From contig JAUWBD010000004.1 of NCBI GenBank assembly GCA_030605125.1, forward strand, positions 1 through 64,000: DNA of 64,000 nucleotides, given 5' to 3'. This DNA is from Verrucomicrobiota bacterium (GTDB lineage: Bacteria > Verrucomicrobiota > Verrucomicrobiia > Opitutales > Opitutaceae). The position numbers were made by a program, and so were the translations under genes. The notes beneath the pieces were generated by a model. The model saw nothing but the letters and a program-made list of their open reading frames with translations. It was not told where the DNA came from and searched no databases. Shown piece by piece: positions 13,075-29,475 of the stretch (its first letter is position 1; each line of letters opens with the position of its first letter).

Positions 13075-13126
13075 GGGTTCTGGATCGGGTTTGGGTGACT
13101 GGGTGTGTTTGCGGGCGGGAGCGCCT

Positions 13127-14155: not shown

Positions 14156-14191
14156 GCGTTTCGAGAGGGCGTTAAAGGTTCTTCAATGGGC

Positions 14192-15907
14192 CTATTTCCG
14201 GCCCTTCCGGGCACGGGAGGGGGCAAGGGCGCGGGCCGGGCGCGAAACCGCCTTATTTTTGATTTCTCCGGACCGCGCCTCGGCCCCGGTCGCCAAGCCA
14301 TCGACAAACGCGGTGGAGTAGATCCGGTGAAACGCCTCGGTCTTGCCGCCGGCCGCCAGCACCTGCGCATAGATCGAGGGCATCTCCGCATCGAGCCGCC
14401 GCATCGCATCCAGCCATTCGGCCTCGTCGGTAATGGCGTCGATCTCGGCCAGGCGCTTGAGCAGCGGGGCGAGGTCCTGCAGATCCGCGGCCGACAGCTC
14501 CAGCTCCGCCGCCTTAGCGAAGCGCAGAGCGCTGGCGGCCTCGTCGCCCTGGGCGCGATTCGCGAACGGGCGCCCATTGGGCATTGGTCCTTGGTCATTG
14601 GGCATTCCCGCGCCCGGCGCGGGCGCCTTCTTCTTCACCGTCCAGCCGGTGCGCTCGGTAACCTCCGCCTCATCCAGCTCGAAGCCCGCGCCCGAAAGCT
14701 TGGCGACATCCTCGATGATCGCCGAGCTGTCCGTCTCCTCGTTGGCCGCGATCCGGAAATACGCCAAGTGCGCCTCGCCGGGAAAAGCCGCGTCCAACCA
14801 GGGCTTCACCAGATCGCGGTTGATGACCTCGCTGATGCGCCGCGCCTCGGCGGAGGCGATGCTGTCGAAGGCCTTCGAGTGCGCCTCGCTCGCCCCGCTG
14901 CCCAGGCCGGTGGCGTCGGTCAGCATGGTCAGCTTGCCGCCCGTGCCCGCGAGCACGAGCTTCTCGCTCAAGTGGCTCAGCCGGTCCTTGAACGGGGCCG
15001 AGCCCGTCGGCGCCTTGTTCTGGTGGTAGGTCGAGCCGTGCGGCAGGTAGCCGCTGCCGCCCTCCGCGATCTTCTGCGCGGCGCCTTCATACTCCGCCTC
15101 CTTGCCCTCCGGCACGTCCGGCGGCCCGATCACCACGCCGCTGGCGATATTGTAGATCTCGCCAAAGGCATCCCAATCCTTCTCCGACAACCCGGCGCGG
15201 ATAAACTTGAGCAGCGCGATGCGGTTCACCGGCCGCGCCACCTCGCGGTAAACGAAACGCTCCATCGGCAAGATTGCCTCGTCCGGCAGCGCGGCGAAAT
15301 GGGTGTCGCGGCCGTCGGGGTTGTATTTCCACGCGCCCTTCAGGCCGTCGCGCACCACGTTCCACTGGTCCACGATCTCGAGGTGGTGGCAGATCCCGCC
15401 CTTCTCCCACTTCTCACAGTGGGCGTAGCCCCGGAAGCGGGCCATAGCCAGGTGGTCGATGGCCTCGTAGAGATTGTCGATCGCATCGAAGCGGGCCCGG
15501 AGAAACGTCTTTTGCTTCTCCGCCTGCTTCTCCTCGGCCTTGGGATTGGAGAGGACATCCCAGTCCATCTCCTGGAGGCGGGCGAGCGTCAGCTCGATCA
15601 GCGCGACCATGTCGGCGTCGCTGCCCTCGATGTGGAAATACGTCCACTGCAGCTCCGCCATGTCGCCGCGGAAGTAGTCCTGGATAAGCCGGATCGCCCG
15701 CCGCAGCGTGAGCCCGCGCAGGGGATTTTCCTGCTCCCGCGAGCGACGGTAGGCAGCGAGACGCTGGTCGAAGGTGCGCCCGCCGGCGCCGCCTCGATTG
15801 CCGGTGATCGGCTTCTCGTCGCGATTGCGAATCGCGCGGGCCTGGCGGGGCGGGCGCGCCGCGATCAAGCGTTTGGTCTCGGCGAGAGTCTGTTTGGCTT
15901 TGCTCAT
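14192..15907 (-). CDS. Portal protein, DUF935 / Mu gp29-like
   Basis: A 571-residue protein of the DUF935 portal family, about the usual 500 residues plus extra sequence. Family marks include RRAIRLIQDYFRGDMAELQW (about 70-90), HCEKWEKGG near 165, and PVNRIALLKFIRAGLSEKDW with a FGEIYNIASG stretch. The C-terminal helical part interacts with the gpF-like protein in Mu relatives. It forms the dodecameric DNA entry ring. Residues about 436-452 (GMPNDQGPMPNGRPFANRAQ) look like an inserted low-complexity repeat. The ATG overlaps the large terminase stop. Confidence 0.88.
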   Translation of the reverse strand: MSKAKQTLAETKRLIAARPPRQARAIRNRDEKPITGNRGGAGGRTFDQRLAAYRRSREQENPLRGLTLRRAIRLIQDYFRGDMAELQWTYFHIEGSDADMVALIELTLARLQEMDWDVLSNPKAEEKQAEKQKTFLRARFDAIDNLYEAIDHLAMARFRGYAHCEKWEKGGICHHLEIVDQWNVVRDGLKGAWKYNPDGRDTHFAALPDEAILPMERFVYREVARPVNRIALLKFIRAGLSEKDWDAFGEIYNIASGVVIGPPDVPEGKEAEYEGAAQKIAEGGSGYLPHGSTYHQNKAPTGSAPFKDRLSHLSEKLVLAGTGGKLTMLTDATGLGSGASEAHSKAFDSIASAEARRISEVINRDLVKPWLDAAFPGEAHLAYFRIAANEETDSSAIIEDVAKLSGAGFELDEAEVTERTGWTVKKKAPAPGAGMPNDQGPMPNGRPFANRAQGDEAASALRFAKAAELELSAADLQDLAPLLKRLAEIDAITDEAEWLDAMRRLDAEMPSIYAQVLAAGGKTEAFHRIYSTAFVDGLATGAEARSGEIKNKAVSRPARALAPSRARKGRK

Positions 15908-17415
15908 GCGTTCACCTCACGGATGCGGCTGGCGGCCACGCGGCCGGTTTGTCGGGAGAAAGCCTTGGGGACGAAGCTCACCCGCGCCGCCTTGGCCGCG
16001 TGCAAGGCCAGGGCCCAGGCCCAGAACTCGTCGGCGTGGCCCGCGTCGTTGCTCTCGGCCACAAAGCGGATGTTGCCGGCCGCCGTCGTCTCTTTGCGGA
16101 TCGCGCGGAAAGCCGCGGTGAGCTTGTCGTCGTCGGGGATGCGCGCGCCGCGATCCTCGGCCGCCGCGCGGGCCGGATAAGCCAGCTCCTCCTTCACCGC
16201 GCCCGTGAACGTGACGGCCTCAACCTTGTATTTCCCGAAGCGCTTCTGCGCGCGCTCGACCAGCTGCCGGCCGATACCAGTGTTGTCGATGCAGGCGCGG
16301 CGCAGGTTGGGCAGCGCGAGCATCTGGTAGAGCTGCCGCTCCTGCTCTTCGAACGGCGTGTTTTGGAGCCGGACCAAGCGGCGGGTGAGGTGCACGCCGC
16401 CCGCCAGCTCGTTGAGCCAGAAGCAGGTCAAATCCTTCACGCGACCGATGTCGCCACCGAGGAAGAGAGGGTTCGGCGACGCCGCGAGCTCGGCCAGGGT
16501 GCGCTCCCACTTCTCGCCGCCCTTGTATTTGATGCCGTCGATCAGCTCGTAGCTCAGGAAGGCGCTGTTGTCGTCGGAGGGGACGCACATGTATTCCTGC
16601 AAAAACGTCTCCTCGTCCGCGCAGCCCGAGCGCACCCAGTTGAAATACTCCGCCTCGTCCATCTGCTGGCGCTCGTCCTCGGGCGGCAGCTTCTTTTGGA
16701 GCTTGTAGAGCAGCCCCGCGTCGAGCGCGTCCTGGAGCGTCACCCGGTGCAGGCTTATGCCCTTCGGGTTCCCTTTGTGGCGGATCTCCGTGACGAGGGT
16801 ATTGAAGTAGTGGGCCGAGCCACGGTGCGTGGAGAAGAAGCGGATGCCACCGCCCCAGGTGATGCCGGGGAAAGCGATGGCCCAGAGCTTGCGGAAGTCT
16901 TTGTGCAGCGCCGCCTCGTCCAGCGTGCGGCCACCGCGCTTGCCCGCCTGGCTGTCGGGGTTGCTCGACATCGAGTGCACGCGCCGGCCGGAGTCGAAGC
17001 CGAGCACGTGCGCGGTGTTGCCCTCGGGGTCGATGACGCGCTCCCCGAGATCCTGTGCCGCGACGTTCAGGATCGAGGCGAAGCCCTTCACGTCATCCAG
17101 GAACAGCCGAGCTTGGATCTCGTCGCGCGAGCTTACCCAGTGGTCGTAGCGCGCACCCTGGACCGAGAGGTCGCGGGCGATCGAGTAGCCCTCGGACCAG
17201 GTCCAGCCCACTTGGCGCGACTTCTCGCACCCCTTCTTGATCGCGGGGTCCAGCACCCACTTTTTCTGCGGGTTGAGAAGTAGCGGCTCCTTCCCGCCGA
17301 CCGGGGCGGGGAAGATCTTGCAGCGGCCGCCGAAGCTCGCCGGCACGTAGGCCGGCCGCTTCCGCACGGGCGCGTGCAGCTCGATGCCGAGAGACTTAGC
17401 TTTCTCGTCGGTCAT
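15904..17415 (-). CDS. Large terminase subunit, Mu gp28-like
   Basis: A 503-residue terminase with both domains. The ATPase half has KKGCEKSRQVGWTWSEG (Walker A-like, about 61-77) and GKRGGRTLDEAALHKDF, whose LDEAA is the Walker B and catalytic Glu. The nuclease half begins LFLGGDIGRVKD (Asp at about 317) and has an IDNTGIGRQLVERAQKRFG strand and DDDKLTAAFRAIRKE near the end, consistent with the RNase H-fold nuclease. It cuts and pumps phage DNA into the prohead; Mu-like phages package by headful from the host junction. It overlaps both neighbours by ATGA. Confidence 0.92.
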   Translation of the reverse strand: MTDEKAKSLGIELHAPVRKRPAYVPASFGGRCKIFPAPVGGKEPLLLNPQKKWVLDPAIKKGCEKSRQVGWTWSEGYSIARDLSVQGARYDHWVSSRDEIQARLFLDDVKGFASILNVAAQDLGERVIDPEGNTAHVLGFDSGRRVHSMSSNPDSQAGKRGGRTLDEAALHKDFRKLWAIAFPGITWGGGIRFFSTHRGSAHYFNTLVTEIRHKGNPKGISLHRVTLQDALDAGLLYKLQKKLPPEDERQQMDEAEYFNWVRSGCADEETFLQEYMCVPSDDNSAFLSYELIDGIKYKGGEKWERTLAELAASPNPLFLGGDIGRVKDLTCFWLNELAGGVHLTRRLVRLQNTPFEEQERQLYQMLALPNLRRACIDNTGIGRQLVERAQKRFGKYKVEAVTFTGAVKEELAYPARAAAEDRGARIPDDDKLTAAFRAIRKETTAAGNIRFVAESNDAGHADEFWAWALALHAAKAARVSFVPKAFSRQTGRVAASRIREVNA

Positions 17416-17981
17416 AGGATCGCCACCGCCTCCTCGATCTGCTTGAGGGTTTCCTTGCGCAGGCCGCCGCCCGCCTTCACGCGCTCCAGCGCGGCCTTCG
17501 CCTTCGCCTGGCGCTCGTCGCGCTCCTTGGCATCCGCCTTGAGTTTCGTCAGCTGCTCATCCCGCAGCTTCAGATCCGCCTCGAGCTTCTGCGCGCGCTG
17601 GTCGCCCAGGCGCGCGCGGGCGATGATCTTCGAGTAGGTGTCGCGCTCCTTCGCCGTTAGGCCGGCCGCGTCGGGCGACATGAGATCGTCGAAGACCGTC
17701 TCGGCCAGGCGCACGCTCGCGGCGTCGCTCATCGAGAGGCCCTCGCGGGCGAAGGCCGCCACCTGCTGCGCGCGCTCGCTCTTCGCCTTCAGCTCCTCGA
17801 GATAGTTCTTCAGGGCGCCCTTGCGGAAGGTGTTCGCGCTCTCGTGCGAGATCTCCACGCCGAACTCCTGCGCCAGCGCCTGGATGGCGGGGCCCCGCGC
17901 GCCGCCCTTGGTCTGCGCGCAGCGACGGAAGAACTCCATGAGTTCCTCGGGCGTGAGAGAGGTTTCGATTTTGGTGGGCAT
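17412..17981 (-). CDS. Small terminase subunit, DUF3486 / Mu gp27-like
   Basis: A 189-residue protein with an N-terminal DNA-binding region (LMEFFRRCAQTKGGARGPAI, then EFGVEISHESANTFRKG) and a long C-terminal coiled coil from residue 120 (RAQKLEADLKLRDEQLTKLK). This is the usual layout of the DUF3486 small terminase of Mu-like phages, which recognises the packaging end. A 112-base leader with a strong hairpin precedes it, and it overlaps the large terminase gene by ATGA. Confidence 0.82.
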   Translation of the reverse strand: MPTKIETSLTPEELMEFFRRCAQTKGGARGPAIQALAQEFGVEISHESANTFRKGALKNYLEELKAKSERAQQVAAFAREGLSMSDAASVRLAETVFDDLMSPDAAGLTAKERDTYSKIIARARLGDQRAQKLEADLKLRDEQLTKLKADAKERDERQAKAKAALERVKAGGGLRKETLKQIEEAVAIL

Positions 17982-17994
17982 GCTCAGCGAGTTG

Positions 17995-18029
17995 CCCGGC
18001 GCGCGCCGGAGATACGCGCGCGCGCCGGG
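17995..18029 (-). promoter_or_regulatory. Perfect 12-bp hairpin upstream of small terminase
   Basis: CCCGGCGCGCGC and its exact reverse complement flank an 11-base loop. There is no T-run, so it is not a standard terminator. It lies between an upstream small gene and the small terminase start. A role in mRNA processing, attenuation or as a terminase (pac-like) recognition site is possible but unproven. A second, weaker inverted repeat (CCACCG..CGGTGG) lies at 18050-18064. Confidence 0.55.
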
Positions 18030-18093
18030 ACTTTACCCCTATTAACCGGTCCACCGCCACGGTGGCCGGAAGATGACTGGAGGCCGGCACCCA

Positions 18094-18363
18094 TCAGGCC
18101 AGGCCCTCCTGCGCCGCGTAGTCGCGGCCGTCGGCGGTGATGCGCCAGCGCTTCAGCTCGGGGCTGATTGCCTTGTCCATCGCCGTCACCAAGCCCTTGT
18201 CGGCGAGGTATTGCAGTTCTGCGTCGATCTGCGCGTCGCCCGGCTCGAAGCCGCCGGCGCGGGCGCCGACCTTGAGCGCGGGCACCTTCATGCCAACCGG
18301 CCCGATCGCGGCGAGCTGCTGGATGAGGTTCTGGCGGAAAAGTTCGCGGGTGGCGGCGTTCAT
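18094..18363 (-). CDS. Small phage protein upstream of terminase, winged-helix-like
   Basis: An 89-residue protein (MNAATRELFRQNLIQQLAAI) with helices followed by LQYLADKGLVTAMDKAISPE and a strand KRWRITADGRDYAA, the layout of a small winged-helix domain. In Mu-like phages small genes in this position (gp26 region) precede the terminase. The ATG overlaps the stop of the DUF2730-like gene. It may bind DNA; no further function can be given. Confidence 0.65.
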   Translation of the reverse strand: MNAATRELFRQNLIQQLAAIGPVGMKVPALKVGARAGGFEPGDAQIDAELQYLADKGLVTAMDKAISPELKRWRITADGRDYAAQEGLA

Positions 18364-18839
18364 TGTTTGCGGTTGAGGAGGGTGGTCACCAGCTGCTGCA
18401 CCTGCTGGTTCAAGAGGCGCACCTCGCCGGCCAGCGACGCGGAGCTGTTCGCCACCGCGTCCACCTTCTGGTGCAGATTGGCGACGGAGGTGCGCCGCTC
18501 GCCGTTGAGCTTGTCGAAGCCGTCGCGCACCTCGGTGGAGAGTTTCTCCACGTCTTCCTTGAGCGCCTGGAGCGCGGTGGCCTCGGCGTATTCCACCGCG
18601 CCTCTGACGACCAAGGGGCTCTGCACCTGCACCTGCATCGCCTTCGCGCTGGCCTCGATCTCGCGCTTCATCTCCTGAGCGAGTGCGCTGCGCAATCTCT
18701 GGAAGCCCGCGAGCACCACGCCCGCGACCAGGGCCGTGGTGACGATCCCGCCGATCACGAGCGCGGAGTATCCTCCGAAATGATCGGGCAGCGGCGGGCC
18801 GGACTGCGCGGCTTGGGCGAGGAGAGGAAGGTGGAGCAT
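18360..18839 (-). CDS. Membrane-anchored coiled-coil protein, DUF2730-like
   Basis: A 159-residue protein with an N-terminal membrane segment at residues 26-46 (YSALVIGGIVTTALVAGVVL) and a long helical C-terminal half (LKEDVEKLSTEVRDGFDKLN). This is the pattern of the DUF2730 (Mu gp25-like) proteins that lie between the lysis and terminase genes in Mu-like phages. Its function there is unknown; a membrane role in lysis is possible. The next gene upstream stops immediately before its start. Confidence 0.65.
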   Translation of the reverse strand: MLHLPLLAQAAQSGPPLPDHFGGYSALVIGGIVTTALVAGVVLAGFQRLRSALAQEMKREIEASAKAMQVQVQSPLVVRGAVEYAEATALQALKEDVEKLSTEVRDGFDKLNGERRTSVANLHQKVDAVANSSASLAGEVRLLNQQVQQLVTTLLNRKQ

Positions 18840-19244
18840 TTAGCGTGCGGATAGAGCGTCGCGGAGACGCGTGTTCTCTTGGGCGAGTTCGGAGAGGCGG
18901 AGGCGGAGCGTGGCTTCGGCGGAGTTGCGTTCGTGGATGTAGGCGGGGCTCACCAGCTGGAGGGCGGCGCCGAGCGTGACGCGCCGGCCCTCGATCTGGC
19001 TCAGCTCGTTCACCGCCACGGCAGCGAGCTGCGCGGCGGCCTGGTCAGTGGGGGCCTCGATCCGGGTCCCCGCCGGGAGCAGCAGGCGGTAGCTGTTGCC
19101 CAGCGGCCCCGCCGCCGGCGTCACGCTGGGGCGCGAGCCGGTCGTTGAGCATGCGGCGCAGAGCATCAGCAGCGGCGAAATCGCCAGCGGCTTCCAGCTC
19201 CACGATCCGCGCTTCGGCGAGGGCGAGATCGAAGGCGCCGGCAT
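18840..19244 (-). CDS. Lipoprotein, possible outer-membrane spanin (Rz1-like)
   Basis: Starting at the ATG at 19244 the protein is 134 residues with a basic region (PKRGSWSWKP), a hydrophobic stretch and a clear lipobox (ISPLLMLCAACSTTG) near residue 32; the ATG at 19166 inside it would give too short a signal. After the Cys comes a Pro/Gly region, then a helical C-terminus (ATLRLRLSELAQENTRLRDA). Its N-terminal part overlaps a membrane-anchored gene in another frame, as outer-membrane spanins do. It ends just before the DUF2730-like gene. The start choice is uncertain. Confidence 0.5.
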   Translation of the reverse strand: MPAPSISPSPKRGSWSWKPLAISPLLMLCAACSTTGSRPSVTPAAGPLGNSYRLLLPAGTRIEAPTDQAAAQLAAVAVNELSQIEGRRVTLGAALQLVSPAYIHERNSAEATLRLRLSELAQENTRLRDALSAR

Positions 19245-19347
19245 CGCGCCGCTGCTCTGGCGTCGGCGCCACGCGGCGGCGCAGGAGGTCCACGACCACC
19301 GGCGCGAGCGCGGTGAGCAGACCGAGGACAGCGAGGACAATCGACAC
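19045..19347 (-). CDS. Membrane-anchored helical protein, possible inner-membrane spanin (Rz-like)
   Basis: A 100-residue protein with an N-terminal membrane anchor (MSIVLAVLGLLTALAPVVVD) followed by basic and helical sequence (FDLALAEARIVELEAAGDFA). Its 3' half overlaps the lipoprotein gene in a different frame. An anchored helical protein overlapping a lipoprotein gene is the signature of a two-component spanin pair, which fuses inner and outer membranes at lysis. It is shorter than most Rz proteins, so the call is tentative. Confidence 0.5.
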   Translation of the reverse strand: MSIVLAVLGLLTALAPVVVDLLRRRVAPTPEQRRDAGAFDLALAEARIVELEAAGDFAAADALRRMLNDRLAPQRDAGGGAAGQQLPPAAPGGDPDRGPH

Positions 19348-19378
19348 ACGGGGATCTCCGGTTGGCGCGTCACGCGGA

Positions 19379-19771
19379 TTAGGTGAGATCCTTGACCAGG
19401 CGATGGACGACCGGCTGCACGCCCAGGTCTGTCACCGTCTCGCGGATCTTCGCTTTGATCGCCTTCTCCTTGTCGGCGACGGCGGGGATTTTGGTCGCGG
19501 CCTCGATCGCGAGAACGAGCGACTCGCTCACCTTCTGCGCGGTTTTCTTTTCCTTGTGTTGCCAGACGGCGATCAGGCCGGTGGCGAGCGCGATCACCGC
19601 GGAGATCACCTCGGCGCCGCTCCACCAGGGAGCGGTGACCGCGGGAGCTGAAGCGGCGGCCTCTTGGCCGAAGGCGGCGGGCGAGAGGAGCACGCAGAGC
19701 AGGCAGGCGAGGGCGAGGAGCAGCGCGGGCAGGAGGCCCTGGGCGCGATTGGATGCGGGTGTGTGTTTCAT
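19379..19771 (-). CDS. Putative holin-like membrane protein
   Basis: A 130-residue protein with a signal-like segment (LLPALLLALACLLCVLLSPA, residues 13-32) and a second membrane segment (AEVISAVIALATGLIAVWQH, about 53-72), then a basic and helical tail starting HKEKKTAQKVSESL. Two hydrophobic segments and a charged tail at the head of the lysis block suggest a holin or holin-like protein. No endolysin was recognised within the window, which would support the call if found elsewhere. The start is CGACACC-ATG. Confidence 0.5.
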   Translation of the reverse strand: MKHTPASNRAQGLLPALLLALACLLCVLLSPAAFGQEAAASAPAVTAPWWSGAEVISAVIALATGLIAVWQHKEKKTAQKVSESLVLAIEAATKIPAVADKEKAIKAKIRETVTDLGVQPVVHRLVKDLT

Positions 19772-19801
19772 GGTGTCGTGTTTTGGCGGAACAAGGTGGG
19801 T

Positions 19802-20068
19802 TCAGAGGGCGCGCAGCCGCTCCCCGAGCACCGGGTCGGCGTCGCGCAGCTGCGCGAAGATGCGGCACCAGTCGTCGTGGCTGGCGCGCAGGCCGTGTTG
19901 CTTCGGCTCGGTGTTCTCGTCGCCGACCACGACCGTCAGCATCGTGGCCGTGCCCTGGGGCTCGGCGCGCACGGCGCGGTAGATCTGCGCCACGGGCAGC
20001 ACCTCCGCGCGGGCGTGGTGGCGTGACTTCGCGGCCGGTTTCTGCTGTGCTGTGACTACGTCGGGCAT
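19802..20068 (-). CDS. Hypothetical first gene of the leftward late operon
   Basis: An 88-residue protein with no recognised family; it contains KQHGLRASHDDWCRIFAQLR, a helical stretch with a Trp-Cys pair. It is the first gene downstream of a terminator and a repeat-bearing non-coding stretch, so it may be the first gene of the late operon. No membrane segment is visible. Confidence 0.5.
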   Translation of the reverse strand: MPDVVTAQQKPAAKSRHHARAEVLPVAQIYRAVRAEPQGTATMLTVVVGDENTEPKQHGLRASHDDWCRIFAQLRDADPVLGERLRAL

Positions 20069-20122
20069 GGGGGCTCGTGTGAGCCCTCACCCTACGAGAT
20101 TCTCCCGCCGGACCGTTACCCT

Positions 20123-20148
20123 TGGAGTCCTAGCTGTCGCTGGAGTCC
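20123..20148 (-). promoter_or_regulatory. Direct repeat in the leader of the late operon
   Basis: TGGAGTCC occurs twice, starting at 20123 and 20141, 18 bases apart, in the non-coding stretch upstream of the first leftward gene. Spaced direct repeats of this type could bind an activator of late transcription. There is no proof, and no good -10 sequence stands out. Confidence 0.25.
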
Positions 20149-20195
20149 GGGAAAAGTTCGCTGCCCTCCCGGCCCGTCTCCGATTTCCGGATACG

Positions 20196-20223
20196 AAAAA
20201 GCCCCGCCGTAGCGGGGCTTTTC
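20196..20223. terminator. Bidirectional rho-independent terminator
   Basis: AAGCCCCGC and its complement GCGGGGCTT flank a 4-base CGTA loop, with A-runs and T-runs on the two sides. It ends the leftward SHD1/zinc-ribbon transcript and separates it from the late operon, and would also stop rightward readthrough. A second near-palindrome (GCCGAGCTCCAGCTCGGC, 20231-20248) follows. Confidence 0.85.
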
Positions 20224-20250
20224 CTGGGAGCGCCGAGCTCCAGCTCGGCA

Positions 20251-20418
20251 TCAGCGCCAAAGGCAGCTCCCCACGAGAAGGAAGAACGCCAGCAACAGGC
20301 CCCAGCCGAAGATCTTCAGCCCGATATCGGCGAAGCCGATCTTCGAGTGGCAATGGTGGCAGACCGTGGCGTCGCGTGCCACCGGCTGCCGGCAGAAGGG
20401 ACACGGCACGTCGCTCAT
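20251..20418 (-). CDS. 55-residue zinc-ribbon membrane protein
   Basis: A short protein beginning MSDVPCPFCRQPVARDATVC. Two Cys-x-x-Cys/His pairs (CPFC and CHHC) form a probable zinc ribbon, and residues about 34-52 (IFGWGLLLAFFLLVGSC) form one membrane segment. The ATG overlaps the stop of the SHD1-type gene (ATGA), so the two are translated together and end at the terminator. The role is unknown; it resembles host housekeeping zinc-ribbon membrane proteins more than a virion protein. Confidence 0.7.
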   Translation of the reverse strand: MSDVPCPFCRQPVARDATVCHHCHSKIGFADIGLKIFGWGLLLAFFLLVGSCLWR

Positions 20419-20990
20419 GGATTCACCTCCACCGGGGGATTCACTCTGAACATCCGCACCCGCTTCGCGGCGCCGGCTACCGTTTCGTAGTCATGAAAAC
20501 CGGCTTGCCACACCTGCAGGCTGCGCACCCGCAGCCCCTGTGGAACGGTGTTGAGCCCTTGGATGAAGAGGATGTCTCCGACCGGGTAATAGCGCCATCC
20601 CTGCTCCATTTCGGTGCCGATAGTGTAGCCATGCTGGGTTACTTGATGCACGCGGGTCGTGCCCTCTTTGGGCCACGTCTCCCACTTCGCCTCAAACCGT
20701 TGCACGTAGGCCCCCTCTTTCGTGACCTGCTGGACCTCGAAGCTCGTCAGCGCCTGGGCTTGGGGTTGCGCGGCGATCCACGCCTTCACGTGGGTCACAT
20801 CCACATCGCTGAGCAGCGAGAGGGCGATCGGGATCGGCTGAGTGCCATCCATTCGGTCGATGGTCACCACCGATGCGTTGGCACTCACGAGCAGCCCCAC
20901 GACCTTGCGTCCCTTTTTGTCTGTCCACTCTCGCGCCGAAGCCGATGCCAAGCAGCCGAAGGCCAAAAGGAAAAAGAGCACGTTCTTCAT
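20415..20990 (-). CDS. Secreted SHD1 (SLA1 homology domain 1)-type protein
   Basis: A 191-residue protein with a signal peptide (MKNVLFFLLAFGCLASASA) followed at once by REWTDKKGRKVVGLLVSANA, the beginning of the SHD1 domain common in secreted proteins of Verrucomicrobiota and Planctomycetota. The domain ends near IALSLLSDVDVTHVKAW. Residues 80-191 form a beta-rich unit without a named family. Together with the zinc-ribbon gene it forms a two-gene unit with its own terminator inside the prophage. It is probably a host-type gene carried by the phage, perhaps expressed in the lysogen. Confidence 0.75.
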   Translation of the reverse strand: MKNVLFFLLAFGCLASASAREWTDKKGRKVVGLLVSANASVVTIDRMDGTQPIPIALSLLSDVDVTHVKAWIAAQPQAQALTSFEVQQVTKEGAYVQRFEAKWETWPKEGTTRVHQVTQHGYTIGTEMEQGWRYYPVGDILFIQGLNTVPQGLRVRSLQVWQAGFHDYETVAGAAKRVRMFRVNPPVEVNP

Positions 20991-21042: not shown

Positions 21043-21246
21043 GTGCGCCACCCAAGCACGAGACGCAAACTCACCGACGCCGAAGGGCAGATGGTCTTTC
21101 GTTTCGCGCATGACGTAAGGAAAGAGAATCAGGAGCTGAGGGAGGAGCTAAGGCGGTCCGCTATCCTGCTCGAGATTCATGCGAAGAAGATCCGGAGCTA
21201 CCTCGCTTCGCTTCCTCCTTTAGCAGCCGATCCGCCTCTGCGCTGA
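21043..21246 (+). CDS. Small coiled-coil protein, paralogue of 21735-21941 product
   Basis: A 67-residue protein with a heptad-like stretch ENQELREELRRSAILLEIHA followed by KKIRSYLAS. The core is clearly related to the 21735-21941 product (REELLKTAQVMELHAKKIRS). It converges on the leftward RHH gene and overlaps its 3' end by 86 bases in the opposite strand, which is unusual, but conservation of the protein sequence argues that it is translated. A partner or antirepressor-like role to the RHH protein is a guess. Confidence 0.55.
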   Translation: MRHPSTRRKLTDAEGQMVFRFAHDVRKENQELREELRRSAILLEIHAKKIRSYLASLPPLAADPPLR

Positions 21247-21469
21247 GATCAGCGAAATCCTTCTCTGCCTCCTTTCGAGTGTATCGATAGCGGCGACCAT
21301 CAAGAGCAGCGAGCGCTGCTGCATCGGCCGTCTCTATCACACCGAGCTGTTTTGCCAGGCAGACCTTGATGGCGGCGGCTCGGCTCAAGCCGGCCGCTTT
21401 AGCCCACGCGTCCAAGGGCGTGAGGAGATTTTCCGGCAGGCGAACGGGGATGGTCGAAGCTGTGGCCAT
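21161..21469 (-). CDS. Ribbon-helix-helix DNA-binding protein, leftward switch gene
   Basis: A 102-residue protein. Residues 5-45 are a ribbon-helix-helix domain: strand TIPVRLPENLLTPLDAWAKA, then a turn and the second helix SRAAAIKVCLAKQLG. The rest is charged and helical (YTRKEAEKDFADLSAEADRL). It starts 9 bases from a palindrome-like CATAC site and faces away from the second RHH gene. It is likely one of two opposing regulators deciding between early and lysogenic expression. Confidence 0.75.
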   Translation of the reverse strand: MATASTIPVRLPENLLTPLDAWAKAAGLSRAAAIKVCLAKQLGVIETADAAALAALDGRRYRYTRKEAEKDFADLSAEADRLLKEEAKRGSSGSSSHESRAG

Positions 21470-21477
21470 ATCTTTAG

Positions 21478-21496
21478 CGCATACAAAACGTATATG
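21478..21496. promoter_or_regulatory. Imperfect operator copy beside leftward RHH gene
   Basis: CGCATAC, a 5-base spacer (AAAAC), then GTATATG: the same half-site and spacing as the perfect operator at 21528, with two mismatches. It lies directly upstream of the leftward RHH start, so this gene is probably repressed by itself or by the opposing regulator. Confidence 0.65.
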
Positions 21497-21527
21497 TTTT
21501 CCACCATCCCGAAAAACAATTTGACCA

Positions 21528-21550
21528 AACGCATACGTTCTGTATGCGTT
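21528..21550. promoter_or_regulatory. Perfect 9-bp palindromic operator beside rightward RHH gene
   Basis: AACGCATAC and its exact complement GTATGCGTT flank a 5-base spacer GTTCT, ending 6 bases before the ATG of the rightward RHH gene. Short palindromes next to RHH genes are typical operator sites for dimers of Arc/CopG-type repressors. This is the strongest candidate for the phage switch operator. Confidence 0.75.
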
Positions 21551-21555
21551 AGGTC

Positions 21556-21738
21556 ATGGCCTCGCCCAAGACCGCCACCATCCCCGTTCGGCTAGATGCC
21601 GAGACCAACACGCGAGTGAAGAAAGCCGCCAAGCGGCTCCGCACTTCCTCGTCTTCAATCATCCGCCTCTCGGTTGCTGCCCAGCTCGCTGAGATCGAAT
21701 CCGGCACCATCAAGGTGCCGGCGGAGGTCGCGAAGTGA
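21556..21738 (+). CDS. Ribbon-helix-helix repressor, rightward switch gene
   Basis: A 60-residue protein that is almost entirely one RHH domain: strand TATIPVRLDAETNTRVKKAA, then KRLRTSSSSIIRLSVAAQLA. Short RHH proteins act as dimers that insert the strand into the major groove. It is the first gene of the rightward early operon, with a perfect palindromic operator 6 bases upstream of its ATG, so self-repression is likely. Its stop overlaps the GTG start of the next gene. Confidence 0.82.
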   Translation: MASPKTATIPVRLDAETNTRVKKAAKRLRTSSSSIIRLSVAAQLAEIESGTIKVPAEVAK

Positions 21739-21941
21739 GCGCCCTCGAAAAACTCGTCGGCAACCGCGAGGCGGTCGCCCAGCTGCTCGCGGAGAACGCC
21801 ACGATCCGGGCGGAAAACGCAGCCCTCCGTGAAGAGCTGCTCAAGACCGCTCAGGTCATGGAACTCCACGCGAAGAAAATCCGCTCCGGCCTCGCCACTC
21901 AGAAAATCCGCACCGCCACCGGTGCCCGCCCCGCCGCCTGA
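21735..21941 (+). CDS. Small coiled-coil protein, paralogue of 21043-21246 product
   Basis: A 68-residue protein starting with GTG (GTGA overlap with the RHH stop). The body LLAENATIRAENAALREELL is a heptad-like helix, then KTAQVMELHAKKIRSGLA. It matches the 21043-21246 product over about 25 residues. Each paralogue sits beside an RHH gene, which suggests an old duplication of a two-gene module followed by inversion of one RHH gene. Confidence 0.65.
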   Translation: MSALEKLVGNREAVAQLLAENATIRAENAALREELLKTAQVMELHAKKIRSGLATQKIRTATGARPAA

Positions 21942-21944
21942 GCC

Positions 21945-22340
21945 ATGCCCGCCGCGCGCAAACACCTCTCCGCCGCCGACCGCGCTCTCTGGGAGCCGGC
22001 GCTCGGGCTGGTGTTTCCGCGCAAGCCGATGCTCCGGCCCGACGAGATCGCCGCCGCCCTTGGCGTGGATCTCCGCACCGTCGCCCGTCTTTTCGAGGTG
22101 GACGGTCGCGATCTCGCGAAGCGGCCCTGGCTGATGGGCATCGAGTTCAACGCCGGCGAGGGCGAGCGGATGAGCCGCCGCGTGCCGCGCGATGCCGCCA
22201 TCCTCTTCTGGGCCGCCTCCGCCAACTACACCCCGGCCGAGCTGCTCAGCCTCCTCCTCGACGTCCTCGAGGCCCGCACCGACGCCGAGCTGCTCGCCGT
22301 GATCGAGCGCGCGCAGGCCATCCTCCGCCGCCGCGCCTAG
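21945..22340 (+). CDS. Early protein with helix-turn-helix-like segment
   Basis: A 131-residue protein. Residues 30-65 (RPDEIAAALGVDLRTVARLF) look like a helix-turn-helix; the C-terminal half (YTPAELLSLLLDVLEARTDA) is helical. It lies four bases after the preceding gene in the rightward early operon. It could be a further regulator such as a Ner-type protein, but I cannot assign it to a family. Confidence 0.6.
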   Translation: MPAARKHLSAADRALWEPALGLVFPRKPMLRPDEIAAALGVDLRTVARLFEVDGRDLAKRPWLMGIEFNAGEGERMSRRVPRDAAILFWAASANYTPAELLSLLLDVLEARTDAELLAVIERAQAILRRRA

Positions 22341-22384
22341 CCCGTATCCGCCTTTCCCCTACAGACCCGACCACCACCGCCACC
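22341..22384 (+). promoter_or_regulatory. Repeated leader before 22385 gene (copy 1)
   Basis: The 44 bases between two genes read CCCGTATCCGCCTTTCCCCT near their start and end CCGCCACC at the ATG. The same arrangement, with small changes, precedes the gene at 26283. Conservation of non-coding sequence between unrelated genes suggests an internal promoter, an mRNA processing signal or a translation enhancer. Confidence 0.45.
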
Positions 22385-22831
22385 ATGAAATCCGTCAACG
22401 CCATCATACATTCCGAACGCGACGCCGCCGCGATCGCCAAAGCCAAAGACGCCCTCGAAACAGCCAAGCAGGCGCGCCGCACCGCGGAGCGCCGCGCCGA
22501 GGAGGCCCGCGAGACCGAGTCCGCCGCGGCCGGCCAGGTCGCCGTCGCTATCGCCAAGGCAATCGAGCACGGTGCCGACCCCGCGCTTGTGCTGCCCTTC
22601 GAGATGATCCGAGCGCACCCCGGCGGCCCGCGAATCATCACGAGCGCCGCCGCGCTCAACCTGAAGCGCGTCGCCAACACGCTCAGCATCACCGGCAGCC
22701 GCTTCCCCGGCTGGATGGAGATCACCGTCGGCGAGCTCTTCGTCCACTACATGCCCACGCCGACGTGGTGGGATTGGTCGAAGGCCGACGAGGAACGCCG
22801 CGAGCGCGCAAAGCGGGAGGCGCACGCCTGA
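22385..22831 (+). CDS. Early-operon hypothetical, coiled-coil N-terminus
   Basis: A 148-residue protein. Residues 12-60 are a charged, Ala-rich helix (RDAAAIAKAKDALETAKQAR), followed by a more compact region with ALNLKRVANTLSITGSRFPG and ending near HYMPTPTWWDWSKADEERR. No family is recognised. It sits behind the repeated leader in the early operon. Confidence 0.6.
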   Translation: MKSVNAIIHSERDAAAIAKAKDALETAKQARRTAERRAEEARETESAAAGQVAVAIAKAIEHGADPALVLPFEMIRAHPGGPRIITSAAALNLKRVANTLSITGSRFPGWMEITVGELFVHYMPTPTWWDWSKADEERRERAKREAHA

Positions 22832-22835
22832 TCCC

Positions 22836-23051
22836 ATGCCTCTCACCCTCCAGCTCCCCCGCGCGCCGCGCCGCACCCACCCCCTGCGCAACGCCCTCCG
22901 CCTCGATCCGATCTGCCAGGTGTGGATCGCCGAGGCCGTGCACTACCGCCGCCGCGGCCTCCGCGCCACGATGCGCGTCAACGCCCACGCCGCGATCCTC
23001 CGCGCCCGCACCGTTTGGCGCACCTACGTCAACCGCCCTCTCGCCGCCTGA
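22836..23051 (+). CDS. Early-operon hypothetical protein (71 aa)
   Basis: A small Arg-rich protein (MPLTLQLPRAPRRTHPLRNA) four bases after its neighbour. It has no visible domain beyond a likely helix (VWIAEAVHYRRRGLRATMRV). Coding status rests on tight packing within the operon and continued frame use. Confidence 0.5.
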   Translation: MPLTLQLPRAPRRTHPLRNALRLDPICQVWIAEAVHYRRRGLRATMRVNAHAAILRARTVWRTYVNRPLAA

Positions 23052-23054
23052 GCC

Positions 23055-23312
23055 ATGGTCACTCTCGCTCAACGTCACCCTCAGATCCCGCCCTTCGTGC
23101 CGAATCGCTCCCGCGTCTCGCATGGCCTCACCCCCGGCTGGCTCTACTGCGAACTCTTCAACGCCGAGGGCGAGTGCTACGCCACGGCCTTCAACTGGAG
23201 CCCCTTCCTGTTGTTTGGCCCGCCCGCCTTCGAGGACTTGGTCCGCTCCGCAAAGCTCGCTCCGCAGAATTGGCAGCGCGACCGCTGGGAGCATCCCAGC
23301 CCCGCCGTATGA
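23055..23312 (+). CDS. Early-operon hypothetical protein (85 aa)
   Basis: An 85-residue protein (MVTLAQRHPQIPPFVPNRSR) with an aromatic-rich middle (GWLYCELFNAEGECYATAFN). No family is recognised. Its stop overlaps the start of the next gene (ATGA). Confidence 0.55.
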   Translation: MVTLAQRHPQIPPFVPNRSRVSHGLTPGWLYCELFNAEGECYATAFNWSPFLLFGPPAFEDLVRSAKLAPQNWQRDRWEHPSPAV

Positions 23313-24223
23313 GCGCCGAGATCCTCCACACCTGCCCCGACTGCGGCGCCAGCAACCTCCTCGCCCGAGGCCTTCAGGCCCACCGCGGCTCGCTCAACTG
23401 CCAGCGCCGCGCCGCCGCCCGCGCCTTCGATTCTCCCATGCCCAAAGCACCCTCCAAAGCCCTCTCAAAACCCGCTAAAAAAACCTCCGCCCCGGCCGTG
23501 ATCGACATCGAGCCCGCCGCGCCCGCTCCCGCGCAGGCCTGGGCCAAGGCTCGCCACTTCGTCGAACTCTCCTCGCTCCACTACGCCTGCTCCTGCGCCG
23601 CCCAGGTCATGGCCGGCATGGAGCTGCTCACCCTCCACAAGGCCTATGAGGGGCGCGGCCGGCGAAACGACCGCAACGTCTTTCACGATGAAAGAAGTTG
23701 GCCCGCCGCCGTGAAGGCCGAGCTGGGTGTCTCCGAGGCCACCGCCTGGCGCTGGATGGAGATGGGCCGCGAGGCCAAGCGCCGCCTCGCCAAGGACGGC
23801 ACCGACCTCGCCTCCCTCCTCGGCCAGCCACCCTCCGCCCTCACCGAGGCGGAGCGCGATCTCCTCAAGCGCGCCGTCGCCAAGATCACCGACGGCCACA
23901 CCCAGACGGAGCTGATGCTCGAATGGGGCATCATCAAAAAAGGCGGCGGCGACCCCAAGCCCTACGTTCGCAGGCCCGCCCTCACCGAGGGCGAGGGCGG
24001 CGAGCCCGCGGCACCCGCCGCCCCGCCTCGCGTGGACGCCGACATCGCCTGGTATGCCGAGCAGCTCGCCGAGCTCAACATCCACCTCCGCGTGCGCTGC
24101 ACCTGGACCAAGCTCGCCATCCGCCCCGAGGAGTGCCCCCGCGCCAACCTCCAAAACCTCCACGACCTCCTCGCCGAGGTCCTCCCCGCCATCGCCGCCC
24201 GCCTCGAACAACACGCCCGATGA
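23309..24223 (+). CDS. Zinc-finger-like early protein upstream of the transposase
   Basis: A 304-residue protein. Residues 8-32 (CPDCGASNLLARGLQAHRGS followed by LNC) form a C-C-H-C pattern like a zinc finger. A basic linker (KAPSKALSKPAKKTS) follows. Residues about 130-170 contain SEATAWRWMEMGREAKRRLA, a helix-turn-helix-like stretch, and later PSALTEAERDLLKRAVAKIT. It is tightly coupled to the transposase gene (ATGA overlap) and could bind DNA ends or regulate transposition. An alternative start at 23439 would drop the zinc finger. Confidence 0.65.
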   Translation: MSAEILHTCPDCGASNLLARGLQAHRGSLNCQRRAAARAFDSPMPKAPSKALSKPAKKTSAPAVIDIEPAAPAPAQAWAKARHFVELSSLHYACSCAAQVMAGMELLTLHKAYEGRGRRNDRNVFHDERSWPAAVKAELGVSEATAWRWMEMGREAKRRLAKDGTDLASLLGQPPSALTEAERDLLKRAVAKITDGHTQTELMLEWGIIKKGGGDPKPYVRRPALTEGEGGEPAAPAAPPRVDADIAWYAEQLAELNIHLRVRCTWTKLAIRPEECPRANLQNLHDLLAEVLPAIAARLEQHAR

Positions 24224-26244
24224 ACAGCAGCCTCGTCCACATCCGCCGCCAGCTCTTCAACGTCCCCGTCTCCGAGCAGGAGGAGTTCGCCGCCATCGAC
24301 CTCGTCTGGCAGCGCAAGATCGACCTCCGCCTCGACCTCATGGAGTGCATCCACCGGGCGAGGAACAAAAAGGCGGAATACGAGCGGCTCTCCGCCCTCG
24401 TCGGCGGCGGCAACGGCTATTCCCCGTTCAACTTGAAGCGCATGTATCGCCGCTTCGTGCGCGGCGGCATGCGCTGGCAGGCCCTCGCCCCCAAATACAA
24501 GGAGGCCTGCGCCGCCGCCGGGCGCGGCCTGCCCGCCGAGTTCGTCACCTACTGGCGCGAGCAGGTGCTCGCCAACCAGCGCAAGAGCCGCCCCATGTGG
24601 AAAAAGCTCCTCCTCGACTGGGAGCGCGGCGAGGCCATCCCCGGCTACGGCACATGGATGGACCACTGGCGTCGCCGCCACCCCTTGCGACCGCTCCCTC
24701 TCCGCTGCCCCGGCACCCCGCGCGGCTGGAGCTACGACAACCTCATGGACCACGCCCCCGAGCGCGTGGAGATCGACCTCGCCCGCGACGGCGAGTTTGC
24801 CTCCCTCGCCCAGCTCGCCCAGATCCAGCGCGACCGCTCCGAGCTGCGCCCCCTCGAGTTCATCGCCTTCGACGACGTGCAGCTCGATTTCCGCTGCGTA
24901 TCCTTGGAGCACCTACAGGTCGTGCCCCTCCGCGGCCTCGTCGCCCTCGATATCGGCATGGCCGTCGCCCTCGACCACGCCGCCGGCCCCTGCCACGTGG
25001 ACGACAAGGGCGTGCGCAAGAGCATCGCCTACGCCGACATGAAGCGGCTGCTCTTCCGCCTGCTCACCACCGTGGGCATCCCGCGCGGCTACAAGATGAC
25101 GCTCCTCGTCGAGAACGAGACCGCCACCATCGACCCCGCCGACGAAATCCTCCTCTCCCGCGTCAGCAACGGCCAGATCGTCGTCAAGCGCACCCCGATG
25201 AAAAGCCGCGCCATCGTCGCCGGCGGCTTCGAGGAGCGCCACGGCTCCCCGCAGGCCAAGGGCTGGCTGGAGAGCTGGTTCAACCTCCTCCACAACGAAC
25301 TCGCCTCCGTGCCCGGCCAGTTCGGCCGCGATCCCATCAAGGCCAAGGCCGGCGACTACGAAGGCCGCCTCGCCGAGACCACCCGCCTGCTCAAGGACGT
25401 CGCCCACCTCCCCGTCGAGGTGCGCTCCGACCTGCACTTCGCCTTCCCCACCGTCGAGCAGGGCCTGCGTCACCTCCGCGAGGCCGTGGCTCGCATCAAC
25501 AGCCGCGAGCACCACCGCCTCCAAGGCTTCGCCGACATCGTCGAGTGGCGCTTTCAGGAAGGCCACGAGTGGCAGCCCATCGCCACCCTCAAACCCGAGC
25601 ACGAAAGCGTGGTGGAGAAGCGCAAACGCAAGGAGCGCCCCATCGAGCGCCTCGAGCGCGGCGTGCGCGACCACGAGTTCGAGCGCCTCTCCCCCGGCGT
25701 GCTCGGCTTCCTCCTCGAGGACAAGCGCCTCGTCGCCACCACCAAGCCCTACGAGCTGGCCTTCCAAGTCGGCGGCAAACGCCGCGTCTTCCGCAACGCC
25801 GCGCTCGATGCCCTGTCCAAGGTCGGCCGCCAGTTCATCGCCTGCTGGCAGGCCGATCTCTTCGACCGCGTCTATCTCTTCAACGAGGAGGGCGGCTGGG
25901 TCGGCGAGGCCCGTTGCGTGCAGGCCGTCAACCCGCTCGATGCCGACGCCTTCGGCCGCGCCGTCGCCGAGGCCCGCGAGATCAACGAGCGCACTCTCAA
26001 GACCGTGCAGGAAGTCCGCGCCCCCGCCTCCCGCCAGCGCCTCGCCGACCTGGAGGTTAACAGCGCCGTCCTCGCCCGCGCCGCAATCGCCGCCGGCGCC
26101 CCCACCGCCGAAGCCGACGCCGCCGCGCTCACCACCGCCATGGAGGCCGCCGCCGCCGAGCGCCGCCGAGCCAAGAGCAAGGCCCAGACCGCCAAGGAGC
26201 TGAGCCTCGCCCGCGGCGCCGGCGACGAGGACGACGCCGACTGA
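24220..26244 (+). CDS. Mu A-like DDE transposase
   Basis: A 674-residue transposase, similar in length to MuA (663). The DDE core begins with IAFDDVQLDFRCV (Asp218/219, with Asp223 nearby), then LLVENETATIDPADE, where Glu298 takes the place of the usual second Asp (MuA has IDNTRGAA), and SPQAKGWLESWFNLL with the final Glu351. The C-terminal domain keeps the MuA-like DLFDRVYLFNEEGGWVGEAR and a basic tail (ERRRAKSKAQTAKE). It inserts phage DNA and replicates it by transposition together with the MuB-like ATPase. The start overlaps the previous stop. The Asp-to-Glu change at the second position is the odd feature. Confidence 0.93.
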   Translation: MNSSLVHIRRQLFNVPVSEQEEFAAIDLVWQRKIDLRLDLMECIHRARNKKAEYERLSALVGGGNGYSPFNLKRMYRRFVRGGMRWQALAPKYKEACAAAGRGLPAEFVTYWREQVLANQRKSRPMWKKLLLDWERGEAIPGYGTWMDHWRRRHPLRPLPLRCPGTPRGWSYDNLMDHAPERVEIDLARDGEFASLAQLAQIQRDRSELRPLEFIAFDDVQLDFRCVSLEHLQVVPLRGLVALDIGMAVALDHAAGPCHVDDKGVRKSIAYADMKRLLFRLLTTVGIPRGYKMTLLVENETATIDPADEILLSRVSNGQIVVKRTPMKSRAIVAGGFEERHGSPQAKGWLESWFNLLHNELASVPGQFGRDPIKAKAGDYEGRLAETTRLLKDVAHLPVEVRSDLHFAFPTVEQGLRHLREAVARINSREHHRLQGFADIVEWRFQEGHEWQPIATLKPEHESVVEKRKRKERPIERLERGVRDHEFERLSPGVLGFLLEDKRLVATTKPYELAFQVGGKRRVFRNAALDALSKVGRQFIACWQADLFDRVYLFNEEGGWVGEARCVQAVNPLDADAFGRAVAEAREINERTLKTVQEVRAPASRQRLADLEVNSAVLARAAIAAGAPTAEADAAALTTAMEAAAAERRRAKSKAQTAKELSLARGAGDEDDAD

Positions 26245-26282
26245 TCCCGTATCCGCCCTTTCCCTATCAACCCACCGCCACC
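26245..26282 (+). promoter_or_regulatory. Repeated leader before 26283 gene (copy 2)
   Basis: Starts CCCGTATCCGCCCTTTCCCT and ends ACCGCCACC before the ATG, closely matching the leader at 22341-22384. The first seven bases overlap or touch the transposase stop. Confidence 0.45.
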
Positions 26283-26633
26283 ATGCCCGAACAATACGAA
26301 CAGACCCATCAGGTCCACACCACCGAGACCGACGCCACCGGCCCCGCCCGCCACGCCGCGCTTCAAGCCATCGCCGAAATGAGCGACCGCGGGCTCTGCC
26401 TCTTCCACTACGAGGCGGCGAAGAACGCCCTCGAGTTCCTCGAGCACGAGATCCGCGACTACAGTGACCGCGGCGAGCAGACCGAGCCCATCACCGAGCG
26501 CGAGGCCGGTGTCATCGTCCAGATGATCGACAAGGTCACCGCCAGCCTCGCCCTCGTCCGCGCCGTCGCCGTCGAGGCCGGCGAGCACACCGCCCGCGCG
26601 CTCCCCGAGAACGCCGCCAAAAACGAAGGCTGA
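26283..26633 (+). CDS. Early hypothetical between transposase and ATPase (116 aa)
   Basis: A 116-residue, mostly helical protein (CLFHYEAAKNALEFLEHEIR and EAGVIVQMIDKVTASLALVR). No family is recognised. Its place between the A-like and B-like genes suggests a transposition or replication role, but that is only position. Confidence 0.6.
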   Translation: MPEQYEQTHQVHTTETDATGPARHAALQAIAEMSDRGLCLFHYEAAKNALEFLEHEIRDYSDRGEQTEPITEREAGVIVQMIDKVTASLALVRAVAVEAGEHTARALPENAAKNEG

Positions 26634-26693
26634 GCCGCGGTAACGGCCCAGCCCTCCAGCCACATCCCCAGACCCGACCAAGGGACCAAGAAC

Positions 26694-27677
26694 ATGACCG
26701 CTCCGATCGACACCAAGAACCACCCCACCGTCAAGGCCCTCGCCGCGCATCAAGCCCGGCTCGGCCTCTCCGGCGCCCGCTTTGCGAAGCGCTACCTCCA
26801 TTGCTCCGATGCCACCTGGAGCCAGCTCAAATCCGGCACCTATCCCGCCGCCTCCGCCGGCACCTGGCTGGAGAAATTCGAGGGCGCCCTGCAGATCCTC
26901 CAGGACGAGGAGGCCAACGCCAAGGCCACCGGCGCCGACTCCCTCGTCACCATCAGCGACCAGAAAGCCGCGCTCAACGCCGTGCGCCGCTGCTCCAACG
27001 AGGTCCGCAACCGCCTCGTCAACTACCTCGCCGACACCGGCGGCGGGAAGACCGTCCTCGCCGGCCAGATCTCCGCCACCTTCCGCGAGTCCTGCCTCTC
27101 CTTCGAGGCCACGGAATGCTGGCGCGATAGCTACTACGCCGTGCTCCGCTGCTTCGCCGAGAAGCTGGAGCTGCACGACGACGTCTCCACCAAGCTCAAG
27201 GCCGAGACCGCCGTCATCGATGCCCTCAGCGTCTCTCCCCGCGTCGTCGTGATCGACGAAGCCCACTACCTCGGCCCGGCCGCGCTCAACTTCATCAAGG
27301 CCGTCCTCAACATCAAAGCGGTGAAGAACCGCGTGGTTATGGTCGCCATGCCCCAGCTCTGGGCCCGTATGCAGTCCAAGAGCTGGGAGGAGACGCGCCA
27401 GCTCGCCAACCGCACCTTCACCACCATCCGCGTCGAGAAGATCGCCGCCGAGGATGTCCGCGCCTACCTCGAGGCCAAGGTGCCCGCCTTCGCCGCTCTC
27501 GGCAAAGACGAGGCCAAGGCCGTCTCCACGGTCTGCCGCGCCGCCGCCAACAAGTTCGGCCTCTACAACACGCTCCAGGCGATCTGCGACGAGCTGAACC
27601 TCGAGGAGCGAAAAGACGCCCTCACCGTCGCCGACGCCGAGAACGCCATCAACCGCGTGGAGGCGCTCCGCGGATGA
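26694..27677 (+). CDS. Mu B-like AAA ATPase, transposition activator
   Basis: A 327-residue protein with an N-terminal helix-turn-helix-like region (RLGLSGARFAKRYLHCSDAT, residues 22-41) and an ATPase core: YLADTGGGKTVLAG (Walker A at 113-120, with Ala where the first Gly usually stands) and RVVVIDEAHYLG (Walker B at 184-191). MuB binds target DNA and activates the transposase. The arrangement and length fit MuB (312 residues). The preceding 60 non-coding bases start GCGGTAACGGCC. It is coupled by ATGA to the next gene. Confidence 0.9.
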   Translation: MTAPIDTKNHPTVKALAAHQARLGLSGARFAKRYLHCSDATWSQLKSGTYPAASAGTWLEKFEGALQILQDEEANAKATGADSLVTISDQKAALNAVRRCSNEVRNRLVNYLADTGGGKTVLAGQISATFRESCLSFEATECWRDSYYAVLRCFAEKLELHDDVSTKLKAETAVIDALSVSPRVVVIDEAHYLGPAALNFIKAVLNIKAVKNRVVMVAMPQLWARMQSKSWEETRQLANRTFTTIRVEKIAAEDVRAYLEAKVPAFAALGKDEAKAVSTVCRAAANKFGLYNTLQAICDELNLEERKDALTVADAENAINRVEALRG

Positions 27678-27985
27678 ACAAGACCGGCACCGCTCCCACG
27701 CTCTCAGCGCTCGATCTCGAGGCGCTTGCCTACGTCGCCGAGACCGGCGGCATGGTCGATGTCTGGTCGCCGCAGCTCGCCCGCGTGCTGTCCGATCTGC
27801 ACGTCCGCTGCCCGGCGCTCTTCGACCGAGTCAACAGCGAGCCCGACCGCCGCGGCTCCAAGCCCTATTTCGGCGTCGTTCTCAAGGCCGCCGGCCGCGA
27901 GGCCTTGGCCGAAGCCGTGCCCACTGAGGATGCCTCGTGCGTCGCGCTCAACGCCATCCGCTTAGCGAAGGGAGGCCGCTCGTGA
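27674..27985 (+). CDS. Early-operon hypothetical protein (103 aa)
   Basis: A 103-residue protein with a helical start (LSALDLEALAYVAETGGMVD) and a compact remainder. It follows the ATPase gene with an ATGA overlap and precedes the DUF551-like gene with a GTGA overlap. No family is recognised. Confidence 0.6.
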   Translation: MNKTGTAPTLSALDLEALAYVAETGGMVDVWSPQLARVLSDLHVRCPALFDRVNSEPDRRGSKPYFGVVLKAAGREALAEAVPTEDASCVALNAIRLAKGGRS

Positions 27986-28212
27986 TCACCTGGCACAACC
28001 CCGCCACGACTCCGCCGCCCGAGCGCGTCGAAATCCTGATCGCGCTCTACAACGAGAAGGGCGCCACGGTCGGCTATCACGTCTCCAGCGAGAAAGGCTA
28101 CCAGCTCATGGACGATCACTACGTCGCCGAGCGCGCCGTTTACGCGTGGGCCGCGCTGCCCACGCCGCCAATGCCCCAACAACTCGGCATCGGTCGAGGC
28201 TCCCGCCGATGA
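27982..28212 (+). CDS. DUF551-like early protein
   Basis: A 76-residue protein from a GTG at 27982 that overlaps the previous stop. It begins ITWHNPATTPPPERVEILIA, the Trp-x-x-x..Pro-Pro pattern of DUF551-like phage proteins, and ends with Trp-Ala. Function unknown. Confidence 0.6.
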   Translation: MITWHNPATTPPPERVEILIALYNEKGATVGYHVSSEKGYQLMDDHYVAERAVYAWAALPTPPMPQQLGIGRGSRR

Positions 28213-28364
28213 AACCCCGCCACCCCATCCAGGGCCTCGACGCGCGGCCCACCAACAACGCCGAGCGCGTCCGCGAGACCGACCAGATCGCCGGCCTGCT
28301 CATCGCCATCGTCACCGTCGCCGCCCTCGGCCTCCTCCTCGCCGTTATCGTAGCCACCAAATGA
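28209..28364 (+). CDS. 51-residue single-pass membrane protein
   Basis: MKPRHPIQGLDARPTNNAER, then a strong membrane segment IAGLLIAIVTVAALGLLLAV. Start and stop both overlap neighbours by ATGA. Function unknown; small membrane proteins in early phage operons can act in exclusion. Confidence 0.55.
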   Translation: MKPRHPIQGLDARPTNNAERVRETDQIAGLLIAIVTVAALGLLLAVIVATK

Positions 28365-28591: not shown

Positions 28592-28615
28592 CCAGCCACT
28601 CCAGCCTTCTAGCAC

Positions 28616-28951: not shown

Positions 28952-28975
28952 ACGCCCTTTCAGCCCACCACACAC

Positions 28976-29443: not shown

Positions 29444-29475
29444 TCGCGCCCCGCCCTCCGCCACCCACCCACGCC

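Follow-up and report, generated by a model that had tools for sequence, protein, structure and literature searches.

A divergent pair of ribbon-helix-helix genes with matching palindromes at the probable immunity region of a Mu-like prophage

Gene organization of the prophage

The window, by which we mean the whole 64-kb stretch of DNA that was analysed (contig C147 of genome G000, 4.88 Mb), contains a Mu-like prophage in which the early genes are read rightward and the late genes leftward, with the control region in between. Terminase, portal and head-protease genes lie on the minus strand at approximately 13.1-17.4 kb. On the plus strand are a MuA-family transposase gene (24220-26244; phrog_310) and a gene for a MuB-like AAA ATPase (26694-27677; phrog_296, Pfam AAA_22). 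The late genes span 2603-20852 and the early genes 21556-33439; since the late genes run in the opposite direction, unlike those of Mu, the control region is central in this prophage, whereas in Mu the switch is near one end. A protein of the early region, encoded at 31059-31472, carries a Bac_DnaA_C domain (E 8.7e-9).

Two genes of the control region point away from each other across an 86-bp gap, as a preliminary description of this DNA had recognised. RHH-L (21161-21469, minus strand, 102 aa) reads away from the transposase operon, and RHH-R (21556-21738, plus strand, 60 aa) is the first gene of that operon. Each is adjoined by a small gene for a coiled-coil protein: CC-L (21043-21246, plus strand, 67 aa) is convergent with RHH-L and overlaps its 3' end, and the start of CC-R (21735-21941, plus strand, 68 aa) overlaps the stop of RHH-R. 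Five further predicted genes of the early operon (21945-24223, plus strand) fill the interval from CC-R to MuA, and the one at 21945-22340 has a weak HTH_23 match. Because RHH-R, CC-R and the later genes up to MuA either overlap or are at most 44 bp apart, a single transcript running from RHH-R to MuA is likely.

Both divergent genes encode proteins that are assigned to the ribbon-helix-helix (RHH) superfamily by sequence comparison. RHH-L matches Pfam RHH_1 (PF01402) with 20.5 bits, which is at the cut-off, and RHH-R matches the same model with 18.9 bits, 1.6 bits under it; profiles built from the L set and from the R set each match solved RHH proteins. The AlphaFold2 monomer model of RHH-R (pLDDT 86) has an extended N-terminus followed by two helices, and the Foldseek matches listed for it were mostly RHH proteins (Arc, CopG, PutA, ParG), every one of them with E >0.2. 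The corresponding model of RHH-L consists of an N-terminal RHH domain and a long C-terminal helix at residues 65-91, and a domain search of this protein found no S24 domain.

Putative operators and promoters

The preliminary description had reported a matching operator beside each RHH gene, and this was borne out. The first candidate, O_R (AACGCATAC-gttct-GTATGCGTT; 21528-21550), is a perfect palindrome with 9-bp arms that follows a -35-like hexamer, TTGACC, and precedes the RHH-R start codon. The second, O_L (CGCATAC-aaaac-GTATATG; 21478-21496), is an imperfect, mirrored copy of O_R with two mismatches, located just upstream of RHH-L. A search of the whole 4.88-Mb genome for CGCATAC-N5-GTATGCG without mismatch found a single occurrence, which is O_R, and two of the ten sites with up to two mismatches in this genome fall inside the 86-bp gap. 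With up to three mismatches there were four sites in the window compared with 2.6 expected by chance, which is no excess; the window is distinguished by its one perfect site and by the way the sites are paired, not by their number. When O_L and O_R were compared in mirrored orientation, 20 of 25 bases were alike (p=0.002, the lowest value that 500 shuffles allow), and the palindrome beside RHH-R outscored 400 of 400 shuffles, these shuffled-gap tests sharing the same start-codon assumptions.

For the candidate early promoter P_R (TTGACC-N16-TATGCG; 21521-21548, plus strand), transcription is predicted to begin at the start codon of RHH-R or immediately beside it. No -35 hexamer could be recognised in the P_L candidate, and a generic sigma-70 promoter scan reported no promoter in the switch region. 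Among the related loci described below, 12 of the first 13 have TTG[AC] 35-38 bases ahead of the R start codon, and 13 of the 23 later ones have it within -39 to -34 (1.5 expected), these distances being uncertain by a few bases as some R gene starts were chosen by rule. Since a hexamer in this position followed by a spacer of about 17 bases would place the start of transcription at the R start codon, the simplest reading is that the RHH-R message is leaderless.

Distribution of the divergent pair

MuA is present in 31 of the 286 genomes of the class to which the host belongs, and in 9 of the 23 class loci inspected a divergent RHH pair lies upstream of it. These nine are the window, G221 (same genus), G013, G268, G051, G136, G217, G039 and G163. 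An RHH-domain profile recovered four more divergent pairs from the class (G175, G161, G253 and G056) in fetched DNA without a MuA match, the loci of G161 and G253 ending at contig ends. The G056 pair is surrounded by phage genes and a transposase-like gene. The G175 pair (L057, 10203-10823), which has operators, stands alone among apparently host genes with no MuA nearby. At G051, RHH-R is immediately followed in the early operon by a second RHH gene (L040, 7244-7528), and this in turn by a Bro-N antirepressor-like gene. One further pair with MuA was found outside the class, elsewhere in the phylum, in genome G345.

A search of IMG/VR with RHH-R alone returned 33 contigs, 25 of which carry a divergent RHH-L, and a second search directed at the window's own subfamily added three pairs, all three with MuA. 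Single-protein scans of IMG/VR with MuA and with RHH-R gave no matches, MuA had no match in INPHARED, and three query RHH proteins had none in 50,697 phage records; the alignment of the whole MuA set was too diverse to serve as a scan query. After removal of near-identical contigs, the total came to 39 non-redundant loci (13 from genomes of the class, 1 from another part of the phylum and 25 from IMG/VR), with MuA nearby at 29 of them.

L and R are separated by 78-93 bp in the first 13 loci; among the later ones, most gaps measure 77-95 bp. Over the first 15 pairs the likeness of O_L to O_R was significant (Fisher p=3e-9), as were the palindromes in 22 gaps that had been kept out of the forming of the hypothesis (Fisher p=1e-8). 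A good palindrome was missing at G217, G039, G163, G161 and G056. Two of the 15 pairs, G175b (contig C7) and G162, were dropped on account of atypical promoters and a lack of likeness between O_L and O_R (p>0.8); their strong palindromes suggest that they belong to other systems.

At five or six IMG/VR loci RHH-R occurs without an intact RHH-L, and at two of these the place of RHH-L is taken by a protein that looks HTH-like by eye, giving hybrid loci in which the HTH-like gene diverges from the RHH-R homologue (L111, 4120-4530; L112, 6468-6887). In L101 and L102, which are near-identical IMG/VR contigs, RHH-L at 6795-6932 looks truncated or frameshifted, while RHH-R and MuA are present.

Subfamilies, operator types and history of the pair

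Three subfamilies can be distinguished among the RHH proteins. Proteins with a P-I-P-V-R-L-like ribbon (window, G013 and G175) are found with GTATAy half-sites, which also occur in three subfamily II IMG/VR phages found later, and those with an I-x-L-W-L-like ribbon are found with GGTGTATAAC-type sites, whose centre is often ACTcAGT. Operators were more alike within RHH subfamilies than between them (permutation p=0.005), the subfamilies having been defined from the same RHH proteins that were later compared by operator. Related RHH proteins therefore appear to go with related operators, which is an association and not proof of contact. As the ribbons are similar within each pair, L and R could each use both sites.

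In a tree built on about 45 residues, of which the broad grouping alone was used, L proteins group with L and R proteins with R inside each subfamily. This suggests that L and R are ancient paralogues and that the pair is old, with no duplication in the present phage. In the MuA tree, phages of the RHH type are interspersed with others. For G221, which has the RHH pair, the sister is G015, where the first gene of the early region has an HTH_3/HTH_26 match just below the cut-off, and in G203 (contig C50) an HTH_3 protein stands in the L place. Because some other MuA phages of the class have HTH proteins at the same place, the RHH module appears to be exchangeable. Relatives with a standard c/Ner-like region, which the preliminary description had held to count against an RHH-based switch, do exist, but the RHH pair is an alternative to it at the same place and not a chance feature.

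In G136 (E 3.9e-12) and in G253 (E 3.8e-12), L carries a fused Peptidase_S24 domain. The fusion genes, each the L gene of a divergent pair, lie at L048, 6824-7603, and L071, 850-1470. The S24 peptidase domain is that of LexA and CI repressors, and its fusion to L in two relatives points to L as the lysogeny repressor and to R as a Cro/Ner-like early protein. The analogy with c/Ner and CI/Cro points to the same roles.

Proposed control of lysis and lysogeny

Taken together, the locus is probably the region of a Mu-like phage that governs immunity (lysis-lysogeny), made up of two ancient RHH paralogues of which L would be the repressor, in the role of C or CI, and R would be Cro/Ner-like. Both RHH proteins would recognise the same kind of half-site through their near-identical ribbon strands. 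O_R would sit on the early promoter, between the -35 hexamer and the RHH-R start codon, and O_L in the mirrored place before RHH-L. RHH-L bound to O_R would block the transposase operon and so maintain lysogeny; RHH-R, once made, would turn down both RHH-L and its own operon and thereby allow the lytic phase, and the two together could form a bistable switch. A wider reading, which we put forward tentatively, is that RHH-RHH pairs constitute a large, independent class of Mu-like switches with mirrored leaderless promoters, exchangeable for HTH modules, and with an SOS-sensing branch that carries a self-cleaving S24 domain. Mixed dimers of L and R may form, in which case the switch could operate partly by protein mixing.

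Among known systems, the position is like that of Mu c/Ner (PcM/Pe), in which a repressor gene also diverges from the gene that opens the MuA-MuB operon. The c and Ner proteins of Mu are of the HTH type, whereas both proteins here are of the RHH type. The early transcript of Mu begins with ner and extends across A and B (PMC3820752).

The closest known design is that of Mnt/Arc in phage P22, which is not demonstrably of the same family. In P22 immI, two RHH repressor genes likewise diverge, the larger, L-type gene being read leftward and the small, R-type gene coming first in a rightward operon, and their gap of 90 bp, compared with 86 bp here, holds both operators and overlapping divergent promoters. 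The L and R profiles, however, do not recognise Mnt or Arc (at most 2.4 bits), and Mnt and Arc have separate operators, whereas the two sites in the window match each other. The P22 pair guards an antirepressor gene in the 'ant moron' (PMC2629481), while the pair in the window is located at the transposase operon. The earlier proposal of a lysogeny control system different from c/Ner thus stands in so far as a divergent RHH-RHH pair replaces the HTH proteins at the c/Ner position, recurs, has operators that fit its subfamily and includes two S24 fusions; it is narrowed by the P22 precedent for two divergent RHH repressors.

The nearly identical layout of mnt/arc leads to the alternative that the pair is an accessory module of the immI kind, whose target would be a secondary function, either an antirepressor or some portion of the early region, with the main repressor encoded elsewhere, and the Bro-N antirepressor-like gene that follows RHH-R in G051 and G161 recalls arc-ant and leaves room for it. 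We consider this improbable, given that RHH-R of the window heads a tight operon leading into MuA, that no Bro-N match was found among the scanned genes after it, that the S24 domain, which two relatives have on L, is characteristic of main repressors, and that the HTH-type MuA phages have an HTH protein in the same place. The domain scan for another repressor within the prophage covered about 30 prophage genes. It is less probable still that one RHH protein alone acts on the switch and that the other serves as a decoy or heterodimer partner or is in decay; the poor codon-model scores of RHH-L and CC-L in this genome, the imperfect O_L and the apparent truncation of RHH-L in two IMG/VR contigs would fit such a reading, but both proteins and both sites have been kept across many diverged phages. 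We reject as very improbable the view that the two proteins are autoregulators of the antitoxin type left over from toxin-antitoxin systems, for despite matches below threshold to antitoxin models (BrnA and RelB) and the presence of VapB26 and MazE6 among the nearest solved sequences, domain searches of the neighbours recognised no toxin gene beside RHH-L or RHH-R, and the constant divergent pairing, the proximity of MuA and the S24 fusions argue against it.

An immunity region built on two RHH proteins differs from the textbook lysis-lysogeny switches of lambda, Mu and P2, which are HTH systems, and its interest is that such an RHH switch would recur where Mu-like phages have their main immunity region. 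The S24 domain relates the L proteins of G136 and G253 to repressors of the LexA/CI type, from which they differ in having an RHH and not an HTH DNA-binding part, and these fusions predict SOS-inducible RHH repressors. Searches of the literature on RHH proteins with S24 domains, on RHH proteins in transposable phages and on RHH immunity repressors found no matching description, nor any account of an RHH-S24 fusion. Small viral RHH proteins are otherwise represented by the Arc-type YosL of SPbeta (PMC10516654) and, in fold, by SvtR of SIRV1; the literature searched describes no transposase operon with a divergent RHH pair. As recognition strand and operator vary together over many natural pairs, the loci provide material at hand for studying how RHH proteins recognise DNA and how immunity modules are exchanged.

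The coiled-coil genes

The preliminary description had placed a related coiled-coil gene beside each RHH gene and had seen in this a duplicated RHH plus coiled-coil module. CC-L and CC-R are indeed paralogues (59% over 32 aa), but they are not mirrored, CC-L being on the plus strand as well. A recent duplication of the whole module is not supported, given the separate grouping of L and R and the near confinement of the unmirrored coiled-coil genes to this phage. Nearly all the other RHH pairs lack the coiled-coil genes. No homologue of CC-R was found among the loci compared other than in this prophage itself, and CC-L and CC-R lie outside the core switch. A homologue of CC-L is found in the same place in the same-genus prophage of G221. 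In the window, RHH-L and CC-L (21043-21469) differ from the other prophage genes in codon use and have a lower G+C content, as if they had been acquired separately.
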